Positions 3,204-61,954 of a DNA stretch of 64,000 bases are shown here, in pieces. The position numbers and the translations under genes are program-made. The stretch is taken from the NCBI RefSeq assembly GCF_000013225.1, contig NC_007776.1, forward strand, positions 2,920,501 through 2,984,500, given 5' to 3'. Numbering within the stretch: the first letter of the stretch is position 1; every line of letters starts with the position of its first letter. Origin of the DNA: Synechococcus sp. JA-2-3B'a(2-13). Its GTDB lineage: Bacteria; Cyanobacteriota; Cyanobacteriia; Thermostichales; Thermostichaceae. The notes below the pieces were generated by a model. That model was not told the origin of the DNA and ran no database searches. It saw only the letters and a program-made list of their open reading frames with translations.

Positions 3204-5135
3204 ATGCTCAGAGTTGGACGGGACAGCATTGATTTTCTCGATCACTACGATGTGGTGGTGGTCGGCGGGGGGCACTCCGGCTGTGAGGCAGCATTGGCGG
3301 CAGCGCGGCTGGGCTGTAACACCCTCATGCTGACATTGAATCTGGACAAGATCGCCTGGCAACCCTGTAACCCTGCCGTCGGCGGCCCGGCCAAATCGCA
3401 ACTGGTACACGAAATCGATGCCCTCGGCGGCGAGATGGGCAAAGTTACCGACCGCACCTATTTGCAAAAGCGGGTGCTCAACCGCTCGCGGGGGCCGGCG
3501 GTGTGGGCGCTGCGGGCACAAACCGACAAACGGGAATATGCGCGGGTGATGCGCTCGGTGGTGGAAAACCAGCCTAACCTGACGATTCGCGAGGGCACTG
3601 TCACCGATTTGGTGTTGGGGCGCAACGACGAGGTGGTGGGCGTGGTCACCCATTTCGGCACCATCTTCGGCTGTCGGGCGGTGATCCTGACCACCGGTAC
3701 GTTTTTGGGGGGGCGCATCTGGATTGGTCGCCACTGGCAAGCTGCCGGACGAGCAGGGGAATTTGCCGTGGAAGGGCTGACCGACACCCTGCGCCAACTG
3801 GGCTTTGAAACGGGCCGGCTGAAAACCGGCACCCCTGCCCGCGTGGATCGGCGCAGCGTGGATTTTTCGGTCATGGAGCGGCAACCGGGGGATCCCGATG
3901 TGCGCTGGTTTAGCTTCGACCCCGAGGTGTGGGTGCCAAGGGAGCAGATGGATTGCTACTTGACCCGCACCACCCCAGAGACCCACCGCATCATCCGGGA
4001 AAATCTCCACGAAACCCCTGTCTATGGCGGCTGGGTGGAGGCCAAAGGGCCCCGCTACTGCCCCAGCATCGAAGACAAGATTGTCCGCTTTGCCGACAAG
4101 GAAAGCCATCAGATTTTTATTGAGCCGGAAGGGCGGGATCTGCCGGAGCTCTACATCCAGGGGTTCTCCACGGGGATGCCGGAGAAAATCCAGATCCAGA
4201 TGTTGCGCTCCTTGCCTGGCCTGGAGCGGTGCGTCATGCTGCGGCCTGCCTATGCGGTGGAATACGACTATCTGCCGGCCACCCAGCTCTACCCCACTCT
4301 GATGACCAAAAAGGTGCAGGGGTTGTTTTGCGCCGGCCAGATCAACGGCACCACCGGCTACGAAGAGGCGGCAGCTCAGGGGCTCATAGCCGGGATCAAC
4401 GCCGCCCGCCTGGTTCAAGGCAAGCCCCTGGTCACCCTGCCGCGGGAGTCCAGCTACATCGGCACCCTCATCGACGATCTCTGCACCAAAGAACTGCGGG
4501 AGCCCTACCGCATGCTCACCAGCCGCTCCGAATACCGCCTCATCCTGCGCTCCGACAATGCCGACCAACGGCTCACCCCCCTGGGGCGAGAATGGGGCTT
4601 GATCGATGACCGGCGCTGGGCCCTGTTCCAAGCCAAGCAAGCGCGCATTGCCGCAGAAATCGAGCGCCTGGAAACGCAGCGGGTGAAGGCCCACGACCTG
4701 GCCGGCATCCAACTAAGCCAACTGACGGGGCAGGGGATCAAGGGATCCGCCACCCTGGCCGAGATCTTGCGCCGCAACCAGATTCACTACTCCGATCTCC
4801 TGGAACTGGGGCTGGGGGATGCGGAGCTGGATCCCTTTGAGCAGGAGGCGGCAGAGATTGCCGTCAAATACAGCGGCTACATCCAGCGGCAGCAGAGCCA
4901 AATTGAGCAGGTGAGCAAGCAGTACCACCGCCCTCTGCCCCCCGATCTGGACTACCACTCCATCCCCACCCTCTCCAAAGAGTCGCGGGATAAGCTCTCG
5001 GCGGTGCGCCCGCTAACCGTGGGCCAGGCGGCCCGCATCGGCGGTGTCAACCCCGCCGACATCAACGCGCTGCTCATCTACCTTGAGGTGAGGCAACGTC
5101 AGAGGGCGGCGGATCCCGTCTGTTCTTCTCTGTGA
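3204..5135 (+). CDS. mnmG: tRNA uridine-5-carboxymethylaminomethyl modification enzyme MnmG (GidA)
   Basis: FAD-dependent subunit of the MnmE-MnmG complex that modifies U34 of certain tRNAs. The 643-residue protein has the Rossmann signature [14 protein letters not shown] (G21-G26), the GidA signatures [21 protein letters not shown] and ALRAQTDK, the second FAD-contact region [21 protein letters not shown], and the helical C-terminus with [19 protein letters not shown]. Length is normal. The C-terminal end overlaps by 37 bp the end of tsaD on the other strand, so the last dozen or so residues of both proteins are encoded by the same bases. Confidence 0.96.
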
Positions 5136-12670: not shown

Positions 12671-12973
12671 GTGCTCATTCTGCCCGGCTTTAACGCTTTA
12701 ACAATTAATCACTATATTCTGACATCCGAACCCGAAGGAGAGCCGGAAAACTGAATGGGGCAGGGATCCCTATCACTTGCCCCTCGAAACCCTGAAGATG
12801 GCGAGAACCGGAGCTGTGCCATTGAGGAGCTTGCTAAGTGCTGCACAGCCTTGCTCAACACCTGAATTAGGGTCATCCCAATTGGGTCAAACTTCTTCAG
12901 CTAGAAATCGCAGGAGTCCCGCACTGTACCCGTAGGGTCAGTGTCGGGAGGAATGCGAGGTTACAATAGAACC
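12671..12973 (+). mobile_element. Intergenic region containing the left end of the tnpB element
   Basis: The first 240 bp hold no gene. From about 12915 the left end begins with a three-tier hairpin at 12918-12948: outer CCCG/CGGG, middle CACTG/CAGTG, inner ACCC/GGGT. No tnpA (Y1 transposase) precedes tnpB, so this is a solo tnpB (IS1341-like) unit. Confidence 0.65.
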
Positions 12974-14209
12974 ATGACCCAAGTCCTGACCGTCTCCTGC
13001 AAGCTCAAGGCGTCCCAGTCGCAAGCCGCCAAATTGGACGCGACTTTGGAGGCTTTTGGCCAAGCCTTGAACTGGGTCAACCAAAACACACCCGAGAAAG
13101 TCGCCAACGCCGTTAAGCTCCAGTCTCTGTGCTACCGCGAAATCCGTGCCCGGTTCGGCTTGTCCAGTAACTTGGCAAGGACTACGTCCCGCTTACGCGA
13201 CCAGCAGGTCTGCAGACGGCTGGCCGGCGCCCGTAAAGTTGCCCGACAGAAAAACCGTCCCGTCAAAGCGTTCAAGAGAGGCTTTGCGACCTACGATGCC
13301 CGTATCTTTTCGTTTCGCGAGAAAGACTGGACGGTGTCGCTGACCACGGTGGAGGGTCGGGAGCGCTTTGAGCTGGCGATTGGCCGCTACCAGAGAGAAC
13401 GGCTGGCGGGCTCCAATCCCAAATCTGCCACTCTGGTCAAGCGCAAAGACGGTTCCTACTCTATTCAGATCTGTGTGGAAACGGAACCGTGCCCACCGCA
13501 ACGCACGGGCAGAGTGCTAGGCGTGGATTTGGGCAGGACGGATATTGCTCATACATCGGAAGGAGATAACTGGAATGGACAGCAGTTGAACCGAATCCGA
13601 GACCACTACTCCAAGCTGAGGGCGGCACTCCAACGCAAAGCCAGTAAGGGCACCCGCAGTTCGCGGCGCAGATGCCGTCAACTGTTGCAACGGCTGTCTG
13701 GCAAGGAGAGGCGCTTTCAGGCGTGGGTCAATCATCGCATCTCCAAAGCTATTGTCTCTAGGGCAAAAGCTACCAACAGCGCTATCGCTCTGGAAGACCT
13801 GACAGGGATCCGGGAAAGGGTCAATCAACAGCCGCGCAGCAAAGCCGAGCGGCGCAGGGCCAACAGTTGGGCGTTCTACCAACTACGTCAGTTTCTGGAA
13901 TACAAGGCGAGGGTTGCAGGGGTTTCTCTGATTCTTGTGCCGCCTGCTTACACGTCGCAGACCTGTCACCGGTGCTTACACATCCATTCTGAGCAGGGCA
14001 AGTCCTACCGCAGTGGCAAGTCGTTCAAGTGTGGGCACTGTGGATGGGAAGGGGATGCGGATTTGAATGGTGCGAATGTGATTGCGCTTTTGGGGGCTGT
14101 CGTAAACCAGCCTAGAGGTTCGGGCCTGTTTTGTTCTCTGGTGGAGCAGAGCAGGCTCAGGGCTACCGAAAGCCCGCTCCATACCGCTTCAGCGGTCGGA
14201 GTCGGGTAG
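12974..14209 (+). CDS. tnpB: RNA-guided endonuclease TnpB (IS200/IS605 OrfB), apparently intact
   Basis: A 411-residue TnpB. The RuvC-like triad is present: D185 in VLGVDLGRTDIA, E274 in IALEDLTGI and D363 in GDADLNGANVI. The zinc finger CHRC ... CGHC lies between the last two. The N-terminal helix-turn-helix and WED-like regions (about residues 1-170) are basic. TnpB proteins are programmable nucleases guided by an RNA from the element's right end; here the coding sequence runs into that end, so the last 35 residues are probably encoded by the guide scaffold. The right terminus meets the 3' end of the downstream esterase gene. ATG 12974 is used rather than 12941 because the earlier start lies inside the left-end hairpin region. 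Confidence 0.92.
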   Translation: MTQVLTVSCKLKASQSQAAKLDATLEAFGQALNWVNQNTPEKVANAVKLQSLCYREIRARFGLSSNLARTTSRLRDQQVCRRLAGARKVARQKNRPVKAFKRGFATYDARIFSFREKDWTVSLTTVEGRERFELAIGRYQRERLAGSNPKSATLVKRKDGSYSIQICVETEPCPPQRTGRVLGVDLGRTDIAHTSEGDNWNGQQLNRIRDHYSKLRAALQRKASKGTRSSRRRCRQLLQRLSGKERRFQAWVNHRISKAIVSRAKATNSAIALEDLTGIRERVNQQPRSKAERRRANSWAFYQLRQFLEYKARVAGVSLILVPPAYTSQTCHRCLHIHSEQGKSYRSGKSFKCGHCGWEGDADLNGANVIALLGAVVNQPRGSGLFCSLVEQSRLRATESPLHTASAVGVG

Positions 14210-17035: not shown

Positions 17036-17312
17036 TGGGTCTAAAGCCCTGCCGTTCACGGCAGCTTTTGTGCTGCACTCTAGACCAGTAGTAGAGTAGT
17101 CAACCACTTAAAAAACCCGGTAGTCCGGTGACTACGCAAGCAACCTAAATAGGTTTTGCCCTTTCTCTTCAACGGTACTTAAGGCAGAAGGGAACTGCCC
17201 CGCTTGGGGAGATGGGCACCGCTGTCGTAAAGGGGCAACCCGATACGGCAAGTGCTGTCTTGGAACCAAGAGCCAGAATCCTCTGCCTTTGGGCAGGGGA
17301 GTATGGTGACAT
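17036..17312 (+). mobile_element. Remnant of a second IS605-type element: structured region and right end, no coding part
   Basis: At 17050-17065 a perfect hairpin CTGCCG-TTCA-CGGCAG lies inside longer arms GGTCTA/TAGACC; at about 17110-17126 GTAGTC-CGGT-GACTAC forms another. At 17280-17299 CCTCTGCC-TTTG-GGCAGGGG is followed by AGTATG, the usual look of a tnpB-type right end on the plus strand. No transposase or tnpB reading frame remains. Attribution to this family rests on the right-end pattern. Confidence 0.5.
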
Positions 17313-17354
17313 CCTCCCGGCGCTCGTCCTGTGGACAGAGAGCGGGCCACCCTT

Positions 17355-17378
17355 CCCGTCAGCAGGACGGAGTCCTTA
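17355..17378 (+). repeat. Dispersed GGA-triloop repeat copy
   Basis: CCCGTCAGC then GGAC-GGA-GTCC. It lies inside the transposon debris. Confidence 0.75.
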
Positions 17379-17479
17379 CCTCGCGGTCGGGCATTCCTGC
17401 CCCACGCCACTTGTCTGGGTCTACAACCCCCGACAGACCGACTGAACAGGCAGTTTCCCTTCCCCAGCCTCCCTGGCTA

Positions 17480-17735
17480 CTGCCAGCTCGCAAAACAAGT
17501 CTAATCCCAGGGAACGGTGCATCGGCAGACAGGATGGACTCCTGCACCCAGGAACCCCTGTCCACCGGCCAAGCAAGATGCTATCCACTCGTTGATTTCC
17601 GGCAAAGTGTAGTTGTATACGTCCCGGCCAATCTCCAGCCACGCCAACAGCAAGGCCTCCGTCCCGCTGACGCGAGCGGCTTGTTGGGAGGCATCTGGAT
17701 CAATCCGGTGCTTGTAGGTTACACCAGCATAAGTA
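17480..17735 (-). pseudogene. TnpB N-terminal fragment, frameshifted, with an in-frame dispersed repeat
   Basis: On the minus strand the N-terminal TnpB region is recognisable: TYKHRIDPDASQQ, then LLLAWLEIGRDVYNYTLPE and INEWIAS. In another frame it continues as VDRGSWVQESILSADAPFPG, also typical TnpB, so at least one frameshift has occurred. The rest of the gene is missing. Between DASQQ and LLLAW an extra AARVSGTEA is encoded by a copy of the dispersed repeat (17652-17675). The left-end hairpin of the same element family lies just upstream at 17783-17813 on the same strand. Confidence 0.7.
17652..17675 (-). repeat. Dispersed repeat copy inserted in frame in the tnpB remnant
   Basis: Minus strand TCGCGTCAGC then GGGACGGAGGCCTT, reading as RVSGTEAL in the tnpB frame. 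Homologous TnpB proteins normally run straight from the DASQ region into the LLEWLE helix, so the extra residues mark an insertion. Confidence 0.8.
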
Positions 17736-17782
17736 GGTTTTGCTACAGATTTCGCTCAGGGGTATGGCGGGGATCCCTGTAT

Positions 17783-17813
17783 CCCGGTGCTCACCCTGCG
17801 GGTAGAGCGCAGG
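17783..17813 (-). mobile_element. Left end hairpin of an IS605/IS1341-type element (third copy)
   Basis: Minus strand: CCTG, then CGCTC, then TACCCGCAGGGT, then GAGCA, then CGGG. It has the same three-tier layout as 10364-10394 and 12918-12948, but the middle stem is GCTC/GAGC instead of ACTG/CAGT. Confidence 0.7.
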
Positions 17814-17910
17814 ACTGATTGCCCCCGCACCACCGTTAGCTAAATCGTTGAGTTGCTCTGCAAGCTAAGATCGGCAAACCCTGTTCCATCGATGAGGATC
17901 CGCGTCGGCC

Positions 17911-18518: not shown

Positions 18519-19487
18519 ATGCACCAAGTCTTGGATCTGGGGATTAACCTGCTCCACGCCAATCAACACCAGGCCGACCACAACCGGGAGCATTTTGATG
18601 CCTGGGGAGCATGACTCTAGTCAATAATAAGCTCAACTATACTGAAAATAATGTATAATATGTTCAGTACGGATTACTACCAGTTGATCTTTCTGTTTAC
18701 TTTCGAGTCTGCCAACATGGTAGCCAAAGCAAAGCAGAAAATTGGTAGTAAGACGACACGGAAACTGCGCTTTGGGTATTCTACTCAAAGCTTTGCGGGA
18801 TACCGCCATTCTGTTTGGAAACAAACAGAATGCTATCGCTGCATAGTTGAACAGTGATGTTCAGCAGTGTTCAGCGTAAATGTATCAGTAACCTGTCTGA
18901 ACCTCATGAGCGCGCCGGGGGCGGGTAAGACGTCTTTGCTGGAGAAAACCGTGGTCGCTCTTGCCGGCTCGCTGCGCCTGGCGGTGATCGAGGGAGACAT
19001 GACGACCCAACTGGACGCGGAGCGGTTGCGTCGCTACGGGATCCCGGTGATTGCCATCAACACGGGGCGGGCCTGTCATTTGGATGCGGCCATGGTGGCC
19101 GGGGGCTTGCAGCAATTGGAAGCACTGCTGGATCCCCAACAACTGGATTTGCTGCTGGTGGAAAATGTCGGCAACTTGGTCTGCCCGGCGGAGTTTGAGG
19201 TGGGGGAACACGCCAAGGTAGCACTACTCAGCGTCACAGAAGGGGAAGACAAGCCTCTCAAGTACCCAATCATGTTTCGAGAGGCGGATTGTCTGCTGAT
19301 CACCAAAGTGGATCTGGTTCCTGTGTTGGAGGTGGATTTGGATCGGATCCAGGCCAATATCCGCGAGATCAACCCTTCTGTGCCGATTTTTTGTCTTTCT
19401 GCCAAGACGGGTGACGGGCTGGAGCCCTGGCTGGGCTGGATCCGAGAGCAGATTCTCCTTGCCCAACACCGACGGCAGCCGCAGTGA
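18519..19487 (+). pseudogene. hypB: hypB, hydrogenase/urease nickel-insertion GTPase, interrupted by a 279-bp element
   Basis: The 5' part (18519-18608) encodes a HypB N-terminus, [16 protein letters not shown] through [10 protein letters not shown]. An inserted element (18609-18887) brings a TGA after GGA-GCA. The 3' part (18888-19487) resumes exactly with [20 protein letters not shown] (P-loop), [17 protein letters not shown] and the guanine motif ITKVDL. Removing 279 bp restores a continuous 229-residue HypB. The 3' part could still be translated from a GTG at 18867 inside the element, giving a GTPase domain without its first 30 residues. The His-rich N-terminus of many HypB proteins is absent anyway. 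Whether the allele is null or partly active cannot be told from sequence. Confidence 0.85.
18609..18887 (+). mobile_element. 279-bp non-autonomous element, copy A (inside hypB)
   Basis: Nearly identical to the inverted copy at 26044-26322; I see only two base differences. It carries an ATTCTGTTTG-GAAA-CAAACAGAAT hairpin with a GNRA-type loop and a TTGAACA/TGTTCAG hairpin near its right end. No transposase is present and no clear target-site duplication is seen. The boundaries are set by the hypB reading frame and by the limits of similarity between the copies. Confidence 0.85.
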
Positions 19488-25219: not shown

Positions 25220-26014
25220 ATCCAGAAGTCCTTCCTGGCAGCCATTCTGGCCCTCGCCTGCCTGGGGAGAGGGATCCCTACTGTGGCTCGTCCTTGGCCG
25301 GAGATTGTGGATTCTGGACGGCTGCGCGTTGCCGTAAAAGACAACTTGAGGCCGCTGGGGTTTCGCACTCCCCAAGGGGATCTGCAGGGGTTTGAGATCG
25401 AGCTGGCTTGTGAGCTGGGATCCCGGCTGTTGGGCTCGGCAGAGGCTGTGGAGTTGGTGCCGGTCTCGAATGTAGAGCGGCTGCAGGTGCTGGCTGACGG
25501 CCAGGTGGATTTGGCCATTGCTCAGATCGGCATTACCCCGGATCGGGCGCGCCAGGTGGAGTTCACTTCTGCTTACTATCAGGATGGCCCCAGCTTGGTT
25601 GTGGCTCGTTCCCACAACTGGGAAAGCTGGTCGGACTTGCGGGGCGGTCGCGTTGCAGTCTTGCGCGGTTCCAGCGCCATTCCCCTGCTGAATCGATACC
25701 TGCCAGGGGTGGAGTTGGTGCCTGTCGATTCCTACCGAGAAGGGGCGGAACTGCTCCTGAAAGGGGCGGTGCAGGGGTGGGCAGCAGATCGCTCGGTGCT
25801 GGCAGGGTGGCTAGCAGAGCATCCCCGTCGCGAAAGCGCTGCGGAGCAACAGTTTCAATTTCTGGGATCCCCCTTGGCAACGGTGGGGCTGGGCATTGCC
25901 ATGCCCAAGGGGCTGCAGCACGCCGAATTGCGGCTGCGGGTGCGCCGAGAACTGGAGAATTTGCGGGCTGAGGGCTGGCTGGCAGAGCGGGCCAGAGCCT
26001 GGGGGTTGCCCTAA
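25220..26014 (+). CDS. Periplasmic amino-acid-binding-type protein (SBP family 3), start codon unclear
   Basis: About 265 residues of a bacterial extracellular solute-binding protein family 3: VDSGRLRVAVKDNLRPLGF, GFEIELACELG, QVDLAIAQIGITPDRARQVEFTSAYYQDG, DLRGGRVAVLRGSSA and the C-terminal VRRELENLRAEGW. The frame contains a good signal sequence (KSFLAAILALACLG) right after rplT, with GAGGAGG at 25202-25208, but no ATG, GTG or TTG precedes it. ATC at 25220 or ACG at 25214 would be needed; a downstream GTG near 25293 would lose the signal peptide. A non-canonical start or a recent lesion is possible. An in-frame dispersed repeat (25827-25850) encodes RRESAAEQ. No permease gene is adjacent. 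Confidence 0.7.
   Translation: MQKSFLAAILALACLGRGIPTVARPWPEIVDSGRLRVAVKDNLRPLGFRTPQGDLQGFEIELACELGSRLLGSAEAVELVPVSNVERLQVLADGQVDLAIAQIGITPDRARQVEFTSAYYQDGPSLVVARSHNWESWSDLRGGRVAVLRGSSAIPLLNRYLPGVELVPVDSYREGAELLLKGAVQGWAADRSVLAGWLAEHPRRESAAEQQFQFLGSPLATVGLGIAMPKGLQHAELRLRVRRELENLRAEGWLAERARAWGLP
25827..25850 (+). repeat. Dispersed repeat copy, in frame in the binding-protein gene
   Basis: GTCGCGAAAGC then GCTGC-GGA-GCAAC; reads RESAAEQ, the same frame as the RVSGTES copies. Confidence 0.7.
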
Positions 26015-26043
26015 AGTTGAGGATACTTGCTACTCTTTGTCTC

Positions 26044-26322
26044 TGATACATTTACGCTGAACACTGCTGAACATCACTGTTCAACTATGCAGCGATAGCA
26101 TTCTGTTTGTTTCCAACCAGAATGGCGGTATCCCGCAAAGCTTTGAGTAGAATACCCAAAGCGCAGTTTCCGTGTCGTCTTACTACCAATTTTCTGCTTT
26201 GCTTTGGCTACCATGTTGGCAGACTCGAAAGTAAACAGAAAGATCAACTGGTAGTAATCCGTACTGAACATACTATACATTATTTTCAGTATAGTTGAGC
26301 TTATTATTGACTAGAGTCATGC
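26044..26322 (-). mobile_element. 279-bp non-autonomous element, copy B
   Basis: Inverted, nearly identical copy of 18609-18887. It lies between the convergent 3' ends of the binding-protein gene and purH and breaks no gene. One of the two differences from copy A falls in the long hairpin (ATTCTGGTTG in place of ATTCTGTTTG), leaving one mismatch in the stem. Confidence 0.85.
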
Positions 26323-26359
26323 TCTTGGGAAGATTTCTCTCTTGAGCAGAAAGGCGGGC

Positions 26360-29161: not shown

Positions 29162-30679
29162 CTAGCCTTTACTCAACTGCTGAGCCACCAGTTCTCCAAT
29201 GGCTTGCGCGGCTCCCGGCCTTCCCCCCAGCCACTGCAGTTCTGTCTGCATTTGCTGACGGCGCTGGGGATCTTCCAACAGAACTCGCATTTGTGCGGCC
29301 ACGGCCACCGGGCGCAAGTGGCCCCGCAACTCCGGTACCACCTCTCGCCCTGCCCAGATGTTCGGCCAAGCCAAGTGACCTAGCCAACGCAGAGCAATTC
29401 TGTTGACGGCGCGGGCCAGCCAAGTGCCCAAGCCTGGAAGGCGGGTCAACAGGCCAAGAATCCCATCCCAGGCGCGCATTGCCTCCAGCTTGTTGGTAGG
29501 GATCACCACAACCATCGGCACCCCCAAATAGGCCAGCTCGGCGGTGTTGGCGCCAATGGTGGTCAGACAGAGATCACAGTTGGCCAGCACAGAATAGGCA
29601 GGGAAGCTTGTCCACAATTGCACCGTGCTGCCAAAGGGGGTAACAAACTGGGATCCCAGATTGGTCTGCTCCAGAATGGCTGAGGTGCCATAGATCAAAG
29701 CCATATCGGGATTGAGCTTGGGATGGGCATAGGCTGCCAACGACTGGGGGGTTTGTCCTGGGGCCACCGGGATCACAAAGCGGACATTCGGCAGCATCTG
29801 TCGCAGCTCATCGGCCACAGCCAACACCAATGGCACCCCCAAGGAGAGCTTGGCTGGCTTGGAGCCTGGGAGCAGCCCCACCTGATAGTGGGTGCGGTTC
29901 TCATCGCTCAGACGCTGCCAGCCGCGCGGTAGCAATTCTTCAAAGGCCTCCGGCCCGCTTACGCGATCGGTGAAGCGGTTCCCCACTCTCTCTGGCGCAG
30001 TTCTTACAGGCTCCCCCTCGCCGATGGAGCTGGGAGATGCATCTTGGAGCAGGCCAAAGGCTTGGGTTGGGGAAGAAAAGCCTGCCGTGGGTTTGGAGGC
30101 AGCGGCAGGAGATCTGCTGCCAAGCCAGCCGGAAAGGGGCACCCCCGGCAAATAGACAGCGCTGGCTACGCCATCCGCCATCAAATCCCCGACAACGTGC
30201 ATTTTGTGGGCCCAAGGGTGGCCCAGCAGCCGTCCGCCATCGTAGCGGCGTTTGATTGCCTCGGTTCGCACGGCGAAAGCATGTACCCAAGGCCGCCAAC
30301 GGGGTTGATGCTCAGCATAGACCACCAGCCGATAGCGCAAGCGGCGAGCAATCCAGACGGCAAAAAACTGATCCCCCCCCAGAAACAGCACCACCCCTCG
30401 CTTGGCCCAATCCCAGGCTTCTTCGGTTTGGCCGGTAAGCAAAAAAGCCAGAAAAAAATCGGGATCCTGCACCCGATCCACGTCGACGAACGCTTGCGCT
30501 ATCTTCATCTCTTGCCCGGAAGCATGGGGGCAGGGGGACAGCACCAGGGAGAGGCGTGCCTGAGGCAGTTGCTGGCGCAATTCCATCACCACCGGACGCA
30601 CCCAGGTGGTCAGCTCTCCAGGGCCGTTTGAGAGAATAAGAATGTCATAGGGAGGCTCACCGCTGCTCAGTGGGGCCAT
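29162..30679 (-). CDS. Lipid-A-disaccharide-synthase-related protein (cyanobacterial LpxB-like)
   Basis: A GT-B-fold, LpxB-like protein of about 505 residues. It begins [20 protein letters not shown], has [15 protein letters not shown] and, in the C-terminal half, [24 protein letters not shown], then [21 protein letters not shown], which resemble UDP-sugar-binding regions. The cyanobacterial branch is annotated only as lipid-A-disaccharide synthase-related, so the substrate is uncertain. A low-complexity insertion (about residues 190-260) separates the halves and contains the dispersed-repeat peptide [14 protein letters not shown] 30679 is closest to the conserved start; ATG 30712 is possible. 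Confidence 0.75.
29941..29966 (-). repeat. Dispersed repeat copy in the LpxB-like gene
   Basis: Minus strand GATCGCGTAAGC then GGGCCGGAGGCC, a GGCC-GGA-GGCC stem variant. It reads DRVSGPEAF. Confidence 0.75.
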
Positions 30680-42585: not shown

Positions 42586-42691
42586 GTCTGGGATCCCTGG
42601 AACGCTATCATCTTCTTCTACTTCTTCTACTGTTGGCGGCTCTGGATCTGCATAGTGTGCTTTCAGCTACTTTTAGCCTGGTAAAAAGAAA

Positions 42692-42733
42692 GGACTCCGT
42701 CCCGCTGACGCGAAAGGACTCCGTCCCGCGAAC
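42692..42733 (-). repeat. Dispersed repeat, two adjacent copies
   Basis: On the minus strand, GTTCGC-GGGACGGAGTCC (42716-42733) and TTCGCGTCAGC-GGGACGGAGTCC (42692-42714) lie side by side, the first lacking the CAGC part. Intergenic. Confidence 0.8.
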
Positions 42734-46762: not shown

Positions 46763-47330
46763 GGCCTGGGTTGGGCTAGCGGATCTTGCCAAAGGGATAC
46801 CAACCAAGGACAACCTAAGGGATCCCTGGGTGGATTCTTCCTAAGATAAAACAGAAGCCCTTATGAGAGGGAGAAACTCCCACCAGAGTTTGAGCCCCTT
46901 CCCTGGTATTGCCCTTGATCTCCGGCCTGCTGGCGCAAACGCAGCCCCCTCCAGACCCCTCTTTTATGGCTTTTATGGATTTATGGAAACAGAGACCCTG
47001 GGAAAAGATTTGTCGGAGCATGCCTCTAACCCCCAAAACCCTGAACTTTGCTGAATTTACTGAGCTTTAGGCGGTTTGGCAAAAGTCATTGAGAGGGATA
47101 TAGTAGACCAAGTTTCCCCCTGATCCTTGAGTCCACCGCAACGGTTGCCGGGAAGTGAAGGGGGAAAGCGCTCGGGGGGTATTCCTCAGGGCTTTGCGGG
47201 ATACCGCCTTCCTGCTCAGAGATAGGCAGGATGCGATCGCTTCTTTCCTGAACCATGTTCAGGAGAGTTCAGCGTGAATGTATCAGTACCCCTGACTTCC
47301 AACCTCTACAGCTCCCAGAGCCATTGAGGC
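46763..47330. other. Intergenic region with a diverged relative of the 279-bp element
   Basis: About 570 bp without a gene. The stretch 46967-46986 contains a short TTTTATGG tandem. From about 47190 to 47282 the sequence matches the right third of the 279-bp element (next entry). Confidence 0.5.
47190..47282 (+). mobile_element. Diverged right-end fragment of the 279-bp element family
   Basis: It shares GCTTTGCGGGATACCGCC and GTTCAGCGTGAATGTATCAG-type ends with copies A and B. The intervening hairpins differ in sequence yet still pair: TCCTGC/GCAGGA replaces the CTGTTTG/CAAACAG stem, and CCTGAAC-CAT-GTTCAGG replaces TTGAACA/TGTTCAG. It contains one of the few GCGATCGC octamers in the window. 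Confidence 0.7.
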
Positions 47331-59165: not shown

Positions 59166-61814
59166 TTAGAGGACAAAGTTAACCAGCTTTTTCGGCACCA
59201 CCACCACTTTTTTGGGTGTTGCCCCCTCCAGGTATTTCTGCGCTGCTTCTGACCGAAGGGCCAACTGTTCCTGCTCCTCCGGCGTTACCTCGGCAGGGGC
59301 CTCAAACGAGCCGCGCAATTTGCCGTTCACCTGAATCACAATGGTCACCGTGTCGGCCACCAGCGCTGCCGGGTCATAGCTGGGCCAAGACTGCCGATGC
59401 ACCGAGTCTGCGCCCCCCAGCGCCTGCCACAGCTCCTCCGCAATATGGGGGGCAAAAGGCGCCATCAGCAACACCAGCGTGCGGATCCCCTCTGCATAGA
59501 CCGGCGAATCCGGGATCCCGGCCTCCCCCAGAGCATTGCTCAGCTTCATCAGCTCGGCAATGGCGGTGTTGAATTGATAATCGTTTTCCAGATCTTCGCT
59601 GACTTCCTTGATGGCGGTGTGGATGGCCCGGCGCAGATCTTTTTCCGCCTTGGTCAGGGATCCCACCTCGACCTTGGCCGGCAACAGCTCTGAGACCCTG
59701 CCCCGCCAGGACTCCGTCCCGCCACCGCGAACGACAAACTCGTACACCTGCCGCCAGACGCGGTTGAGAAAGCGAAATTGCCCCTCCACATCGGCATCGT
59801 CCCACTCCAGATCCTTCTCCGGCGGGGCCTTGAAGAGGATAAACATGCGGGCCGTATCCGCCCCGTAGTGGGCCAGCACCTCCTCGGGATCCACGCCGTT
59901 GCCCTTGGATTTGGACATGGTGGCATAGATCACTTCCAGGGGTTCGCCGGTCTCCGGATCTGTGGGGTTGTCGGGATCCTTCACCAGAGCTGCCGGGATC
60001 CAGCGATCCTTGCCGGACTTGTTGGGGTTGTAGTAAGTGCGCCCTTGCACCATCCCCTGGGTGAGCAGACGCAGGAACGGCTCGTCAAAATCCAGCAGCC
60101 CCCGATCCCGCAACACCTTGGTAAAAAAGCGGGAATAGAGCAGGTGCAGGATGGCGTGCTCGATGCCGCCCACGTACTGATCCACCGGCAGCCAGGCGTT
60201 CACCCGGTCTTTGCGGAAGATCTCTCGGTCGTTGCGGGCATCGCTAAAGCGCAGGAAGTACCACGACGAGCAGATGAAGGTGTCCATGGTATCGGTTTCC
60301 CGGCGAGCCTCCGCGCCACAGGTGGGGCACTTCACCTTCACCCAGTCCTCCAACTGGGCCAACGGGGATCCCCCTCGCCCCGTCAGCTCCACATCCTCCG
60401 GCAAGAGCACCGGCAGATCCTTCTCCGGCACCGGCACAATGCCACAGTGGGGACAATGGATCACCGGGATGGGACAACCCCAGTAGCGCTGCCGCGAGAT
60501 CAGCCAATCCCGCAGGCGGTAGTTGATCTGCTTTTCCCCCAGCCCCTGGGCTTCCAGCCAGGCGATGGCTCTTTCCACGCTTTGCCCTGGGCCTTTGCCC
60601 ACCGGGATCCCGTCTAGGGGGCCAGAGTTGATCATCACCCCTTCCCCCGTCCAGGCAGCCTGCAGTTCTGAGGACTCCGTCCCGCTGGCGCGATCCGTCG
60701 AGGATAAGGAACCCTCCGGCGGCTGCACCACCCGCTTGATGGGCAGGCCGAACTTGCGGGCAAACTCGAAATCCCGCTGGTCGTGGGCAGGCACGGCCAT
60801 AATGGCCCCCGTACCGTAGCCCATCAGCACATAGTCGGCAATCCAGATGGGGATTCGCTCTTGGTTGACGGGGTTGATGGCGTAGGATCCCGTCCAAACC
60901 CCTGTCTTTTCCCGGTCTTCAGCGCTGCGCTCGATCTCGCTGCGGGCAGCGGCCTGGGCTTGATAGGCTCTGACGGCCTGCAGTTGCTCGGCAGTGGTGA
61001 GCTTGTCCACCAAGGGGTGCTCCGGCGACATCACCATGAAGGTGGCCCCCCAGAGGGTATCGGGCCGGGTGGTGAACACTGCCAGCTCGTCCCCCGCCTC
61101 GGTTTTGAAAATCACCTTAGCCCCCACCGATTGGCCAATCCAATTCTCCTGCATGGTGCGCACCCGCTCCGGCCAGCCGGAGAGCTTTTCCAGATCCGCC
61201 AGCAGTTGGTCGGCATAGGCGGTGATTTTGAAAAACCACTGCTTGAGCATGCGCTTTTCCACCAGGGCGCCGGATCTCCAGGAACGCCCCTCCGCATCCA
61301 CCTGCTCGTTGGCCAACACCGTCTGATCCACCGGATCCCAGTTCACTGGCGCTTCCTTCTGGTAGGCCAGGCCGGCCTTGAAAAATTGCAGGAAGAGCCA
61401 CTGCGTCCACTTGTAGTAGTCGGGGGCGCAGGTGGTGATCTCCCGCTCCCAGTCGTAGGAGAGCCCCAGCCGCTGCAGTTGCTCCCGCATCTGGGCAATG
61501 TTTTGGTAGGTCCACTTGGCCGGTGGGATCCCCCGGTCGATGGCGGCATTCTCCGCCGGCAGGCCAAAGGCATCCCAGCCCATCGGGTGCAACACCGCGT
61601 ATCCCTGCATTCGTTTGTGGCGGGCAATTACATCGGTGATGGTGTAATTGCGCACATGCCCCATGTGCAGGTTGCCGCTGGGATAGGGGAACATGGACAG
61701 AGCATAAAATTTGCGGCTCCCGTCCTTCAGCTCTGGGGTGCGATCCAGCCCGATTTCACGCCAGTGGGCTTGCCACTTGCTCTCGATGGCCTGGGGATTG
61801 TAGCGCGCGTCCAC
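59166..61814 (-). CDS. leuS: Leucyl-tRNA synthetase
   Basis: Class I synthetase of 882 residues. [15 protein letters not shown] holds the HIGH signature (HMGH, about 50-53), then the [17 protein letters not shown] block, the CP1 editing domain ([19 protein letters not shown]), [15 protein letters not shown], and [14 protein letters not shown] with the KMSKS lysines. GTG 61814 fits the family start ([13 protein letters not shown]) and has AGGAG at nine bases. Two dispersed repeats are read through in frame (DRASGTESS after the editing domain region and VRGGGTESW near the anticodon-binding domain), which explains part of the extra length over usual cyanobacterial LeuS. Confidence 0.96.
59709..59732 (-). 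repeat. Dispersed repeat copy in leuS (C-terminal)
   Basis: Minus strand GTTCGCGGTGGC then GGGACGGAGTCC; reads VRGGGTESW. Confidence 0.8.
60672..60692 (-). repeat. Dispersed repeat copy in leuS (middle)
   Basis: Minus strand TCGCGCCAGC then GGGACGGAGTCC; reads RASGTESS. Confidence 0.8.
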
Positions 61815-61954
61815 GGTTCGATGCTCCTGGGAAAAAAGCGCATACGCTGGGAGATAGAAGCATTTTGACATACTCCCCACGCCAGTGCTCTCAAGCAAGG
61901 AACGGGATCCCTATTGGCGCTGACAAACCGACAAGCAGGGATCACAAGCAGGGA

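Follow-up and report, generated by a model that had tools for sequence, protein, structure and literature searches.

The dead tnpB gene in this stretch of Synechococcus sp. JA-2-3B'a(2-13) carries a fixed 24-nt mobile unit, which belongs to a genus-wide repeat family and is defined by exact pairs of filled and empty sites. These pairs comprise two sites in the dead tnpB element, one in elements of genome G005, three in a family of live-looking tnpB genes, and sites in host genes, and the 24-nt inserts are without evident target duplication. The window (the whole 64,000-nt stretch of DNA analysed) is C1:2920501-2984500 of the 3,046,682-bp single-contig genome (G000), and our census sample joined it to 39 evenly spaced 20-kb stretches to give 844 kb. 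This sample held 218 copies of the repeat, while the same scan found none in shuffled sequence. The features discussed below are collected in Table 1.

Table 1. Positions in the window of the dead tnpB element, its inserts and lesions, and other genes carrying the repeat
Feature	Position	Strand	Remarks
Dead, internally deleted tnpB-only element (IS200/IS605 superfamily, IS1341-like)	17306..17842	-	Left end 17842, right end 17306; homology of copies ends approximately there, flanks differ
Remaining tnpB N-terminal reading frame (AKSVAKPTYAG..., 84 aa)	17504..17755	-	Insert inside
24-nt repeat in tnpB N-terminal remnant (AARVSGTE+A)	17654..17680	-	22-nt motif 17654-17675; 24-nt gap in intact homologues; same insert in L009 and L010
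2-nt deletion frameshift	17571..17575	-	Window copy only; bases kept in L009 and L010
Internal-deletion junction, TTCCCT/GTGGATTAGA	17506..17512	-	Common to window, L009, L011 and L012; L010 keeps tnpB body
Second repeat copy in right end of dead element (motif 17354-17375)	~17348..17377	+	Non-coding, opposite orientation; 24-nt gap in intact elements
Live-looking TnpB of multicopy family, insert at site A (LA^RTTSRLRD^QQ, 13178-13201)	12941..14209	+	Intact ORF, PF01385, PF07282
Genic copy (RRESAAEQ)	25828..25849	+	G001 orthologue has 24-nt empty site
Genic copy (DRVSGPEA)	29945..29966	-	G004 orthologue (about 91% identical) has exact 24-nt empty site
leuS with two repeat copies in favoured frame (motifs 59709-59730, 60672-60693)	59166..61898	-

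Insertion in the dead tnpB element and its dating

The host element falls among the tnpB-only (IS1341-like) elements of the IS200/IS605 superfamily and their deleted derivatives, and consists of a left end, the tnpB N-terminus and a right end. The N-terminus of its intact homologue matches PF12323 (Pfam), with PF01385 at the same locus, and copies share conserved ends between unrelated flanks, while the ORF of the near-identical copy L009 gave no Pfam match. It is otherwise ordinary, its two repeat inserts being the sole unusual feature. The interval 17480-17735 outlined in the preliminary description covers only part of this element.

The minus-strand remnant frame reads YKHRIDPDASQQ-AARVSGTE-ALLLAWLEIGRDVYNYTLPEINEW, with AARVSGTEA encoded at 17680-17654. 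These nine residues had been put forward as an insertion at a point where homologous TnpB proteins are continuous. The insertion is real and without counterpart in intact relatives, but the net gain is eight residues rather than nine, because one Ala of AARVSGTEA is common to the flank; its boundary is ambiguous by a few nt. We looked for relatives without the repeat and found the site empty in intact homologues from the same genome, G005 and G014, which are continuous across it as YRIYPDAAQQAKLRSWLE in the own genome, YRIYPDAAQQTQLLEWLE and YPSATQQAQLLEWLE in G005, and YPDVTQQTELLEWLE in G014. These uninterrupted TnpB relatives are L053 (own genome, 426 aa), L059 (G005, 425 aa), L065 (G005, 206-aa frame) and L060 (G014), and at the DNA level a clean 24-nt gap lies at the insert site in the own intact copy (L016/L053) and in L059 and L065. 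Three dead copies (window, L009 and L010) carry the repeat at the identical codon, and since two paralogous copies thus share the insert of the window remnant, its presence there is not due to chance. Searches of the element against a plasmid collection, and of both window and element against Rfam, gave no match.

Six copies (window and L009, L010, L011, L012 and L013) were aligned for the order of events, with L009 and L010 being 97% and 89% identical to the window copy, respectively. The insert site falls within deletions in L011, L012 and L013, which are uninformative on the repeat. The internal-deletion junction can also be written TTCCCT/GTGGATTAG, and the window copy has lost one further base there. 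L010 lacks this deletion and both window frameshifts, retains more of the tnpB body and has a private +1 T, while L009 lacks the window frameshifts (the 2-nt deletion and the extra 1-nt loss). By parsimony the repeat is therefore older than all three lesions, which answers the question of relative dating raised in the preliminary description, and the simplest order would be repeat entry, splitting of the L010 lineage, internal deletion and finally the window frameshifts. Homology between the window copy and L009 stops at the element ends and their flanks differ, and the truncated form therefore moved after the repeat had arrived.

The repeat could nevertheless have come in after tnpB had lost its function, with the element mobilised in trans. 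Substitutions among the repeat-bearing copies fall 5/7/6 at codon positions 1/2/3 (dN/dS 0.62, p = 0.39), so no constraint is visible after repeat entry, and these copies, which diverge from a repeat-bearing ancestor without codon-position bias, offer no hint that a TnpB bearing the insert was functional. Arguing the other way, the N-terminal reading frame of the ancestor was open through the insert, the more ancient substitutions that separate these copies from the intact relative show a modest third-position excess (17/12/24), and every lesion that can be ordered is later than the insert. We regard entry into an already non-functional gene as possible though somewhat doubtful, and prefer entry of the repeat ahead of the deletion of the tnpB body.

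The second copy, in the right end, was present in 8/8 dead copies compared and absent from four intact elements, where it is matched by the gap, and an independent 24-nt copy, TCGCGCTAGCG-GCGC-GGA-GCGC, lies elsewhere in the right end of the two G005 elements. These right-end inserts are non-coding yet exactly 24 nt, which indicates that the length was not made by selection on reading frame and that frame preservation comes with the element itself.

Phase preference of genic copies

Both copies in leuS translate as R-x-x-G-T-E-S, and the earlier statement that the tnpB insert lies in the same frame as in leuS is correct. Host-gene sites were compared against five congeneric genomes, with the leuS copy at 59709 common to G004 and G001, that at 60672 common to G004, and empty orthologous sites observed for two other genic copies (Table 1). 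At the G004-shared sites 33318, 37099, 34068 and 59709 (compared with L088 and L106) the interior of the repeat is far less conserved than the sequence on either side, hinting at fast turnover, rewriting or conversion of copies.

Genic copies were assigned to phases using codon-bias gene calls made in this analysis rather than curated annotation, and duplicated contexts were counted once. Sense copies were distributed 7/12/45 over phases 0/1/2 (n = 64), with phase 2 reading R-x-S-G-T-E-S, while antisense copies were distributed 15/18/18 and displayed no preference. With stricter gene criteria these counts were 5/7/33 and 11/14/11, respectively. In a second species (G001), using the same sampling, sense copies gave 3/0/11 (11/14 in phase 2) and antisense copies 2/1/5, and when the sense copies of G000 and G001 were pooled, 56/78 were in phase 2. 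As the consensus is open in all three sense frames, stop codons do not account for this preference.

The preference might instead arise at insertion, either because the target trinucleotide is phased by codon usage or because the enzyme senses translation or transcription. Consistent with this, a YYR/CCG-like target precedes the unit, the favoured phase is where CCG is commonest (0.42), and the pattern is one of a surplus in the sense phase-2 class over all other classes, not simply of depletion in these. However, a simple target model, derived from at most 74 intergenic copies, some of them perhaps inside pseudogenes or genes missed by the calls, predicted 0.22/0.37/0.42 for sense phases 0/1/2 when applied to 417 genes, and its value for the favoured phase (0.416) falls well below the 0.70 observed (p = 3e-6). 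Antisense copies, which have the same target, show no bias. The phase bias thus comes only partly from target sequence.

Further evidence comes from the live tnpB family, of which the loci examined hold over 20 intact copies, with insertion polymorphic at site A, site B (RRFQ^SRQRCVAK^TW) and site C (VIAL^WCSAPLTR^LGA). These are filled singly or together, and each is an exact 24-nt addition relative to nearly identical copies of the same genome that lack the insert. Site A is in antisense phase 1, B in sense phase 0 and C in antisense phase 2; none is in the leuS frame, which again speaks against a preference set at insertion, with three sites being too few to show that bias is absent (p about 0.23). 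The inserts form a mosaic among live copies (window 12941-14209; L119, L127, L130, L137, L150 and others), which suggests recombination or conversion between IS copies.

Because antisense copies are without bias and the target model falls short, the phase excess is best explained by selection on the translated peptide, and an origin at insertion is unlikely. The preliminary description had proposed that the timing of insertion relative to the death of tnpB would separate insertion mechanism from constraint, but one favoured-phase site cannot tell the two apart, since a sense insert has about a 42% chance of the favoured phase anyway and a 24-nt unit leaves the frame open with or without selection. 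The question is better answered by the sense-only bias of the census and the polymorphic inserts in live tnpB genes, and from this broader evidence it is more likely that a fixed 24-nt unit inserts without regard to frame and that selection on phase acts later.

Structure and distribution of the repeat family

When aligned, the 24 copies in the window show a pair of hairpins: the first is CGC-NNNN-GCG, and the second has a 4-bp stem and the loop GGA. The second stem occurs as GGAC/GTCC, TTGC/GCAA, GTGC/GCAC and other variants and covaries, with 25 cells changed on both sides compared with 9.2 in shuffled data and a covariation score of 0.434 versus 0.172, reached by 0/500 shuffles. Its paired cells, two-sided changes and covariation score all exceed 500 shuffles and slid controls, while variation in the first stem is mostly one-sided. 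The logo of 166 copies reads YYR N TCGCG..., with the YYR-like target (C/T, C/T, G/A) ahead of the unit and T-rich sequence behind. The genome has no usable GC skew against which insertion orientation and replication strand could be compared.

Using a covariance model genome-wide, about 150 of 1754 first-look candidates were scored, nearly all of them strong, and the density of the repeat was 68 sites per 200 kb versus 0 in shuffled sequence. Every genome of the genus held at least 48-59 matches, two same-family genomes in the class sample held 3-8, and in the rest of that sample the repeat was sparse or absent. None of the literature searched describes this repeat from these strains. Tandem arrays with 24- or 48-nt spacing were observed at L144:2254-2371, window 42681-42729 and L147:309-426, encoding peptides such as RGSGPEAFRGSGPEAF.

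Spread by tandem slippage and gene conversion, rather than by true transposition, could draw on the occurrence of such arrays and on a quicker divergence of loops than of flanks when several shared sites are compared across species, but unrelated sites hold single, clean 24-nt inserts whose counterparts elsewhere are empty, which makes it quite improbable as the origin of the copies. That the AARVSGTEA residues are ancestral to the TnpB lineage and were lost elsewhere, as the preliminary description would have concluded had intact members all contained them, is extremely improbable and already contradicted, for although all three dead copies that retain the site have the residues, the intact relatives compared over it lack them, no intact close relative bearing them was found (in a scan of GTDB species genomes, no closely related protein was confirmed for the TnpB that carries the repeat), and the inserted sequence is a member of a repeat family present at hundreds of unrelated sites.

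Other repeats are also present in the window. The octamer GGGATCCC is strongly repeated at many sites (e.g. 7113, 27768, 35859 and 43208) and is a HIP1 derivative over-represented in Synechococcus JA-3-3Ab and JA-2-3B (PMC4390886). An 86-nt dispersed repeat, unlike the 24-nt family, occurs at 18767-18852 and 47168-47253 (the pair being 71% identical), and an element of roughly 283 bp (about 26043-26326), likely a MITE or short IS, recurs dozens of times in G000 and G001 at 91-100% identity.

Known systems and proposed course of events

The small dispersed repeats (SDRs) of cyanobacteria studied by Elhai et al. (2008) are reportedly about 21-27 nt long, with many copies, hairpin potential and sites inside genes and other repeats. 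The present family resembles them in being very short, with many dispersed copies, hairpin potential, sites in genes and repeats, and a cyanobacterial host. Its size and copy number (24 nt; 218 copies in 844 kb) agree with that kind, as does its mobility, seen from occupied and empty sites, a likeness of general description. Documented here are the exact 24-nt unit, the covarying stem and the phase census. Passages of PMC3116915 and PMC4390886 cite the SDR study.

As to in-frame insertion inside protein genes, the present repeat resembles the Rickettsia palindromic elements (RPE), which are inserted in this manner but are around 100-150 bp in size and therefore far from a 24-nt unit. Some RPEs have been classed as CGTC repeats (PMC3733652). 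REP/REPIN sequences are short palindromic non-autonomous repeats with RAYT (TnpA-REP) transposases (PMC3116915, PMC3733652, PMC6006769), and some cyanobacterial REPs sit inside tnpA-REP genes (PMC6006769). The present repeat is likewise short, palindromic and non-autonomous, but the logo of 166 copies has no unpaired terminal GTAG or CGTC tag, the CGTC letters of the consensus falling within stem 1 and its loop, and no RAYT was identified here, the one intact Y1 transposase (544340) adjoining a tnpB.

The only intact TnpA-bearing IS605-type element (L120:2150-2420 and 3900-4250; G000:C1 around 544.2-546.2 kb) has repeat copies in the loops of apparent subterminal hairpins at both ends. The repeat being a native end hairpin of this element is unsupported, as about 24 nt are missing from the right end of L072, a relative in G001.

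In the course of events that we propose, a unit composed of N-TCGCG-NNA-GCG, a 4-bp stem closed by loop GGA, and then T, would insert behind a YYR-like target without evident target duplication; a single-strand mechanism is a guess. An ancestral tnpB element would have received one repeat in its N-terminal coding part and a second in its right end, after which the element would have lost the tnpB body and several copies, truncated ones included, would have reached new sites. As the unit is 24 nt, any genic insertion adds eight codons and never shifts the frame, and the frame seen in living genes would reflect partly target sequence and mainly later selection, which would best keep the polar peptide R-x-S-G-T-E-S. 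We consider this account as a whole, with its two-hairpin 24-nt repeat, pre-deletion entry and selected frame, to be probable. More tentatively, and as a serious possibility, the repeat may be an undescribed, gene-less 24-nt mobile element with two hairpins (one clearly covarying), present genus-wide and also in live transposon genes, that seeds eight-residue R-x-S-G-T-E-S modules kept in one frame by selection.

Almost identical transposon copies, some holding the repeat and others empty, provide exact insertion junctions, which are rarely available from old chromosomal copies. These junctions reveal a 24-nt unit without evident duplication and explain why it is tolerated in essential genes such as leuS, and why one frame predominates becomes a testable question, that of selection on an eight-residue insert.
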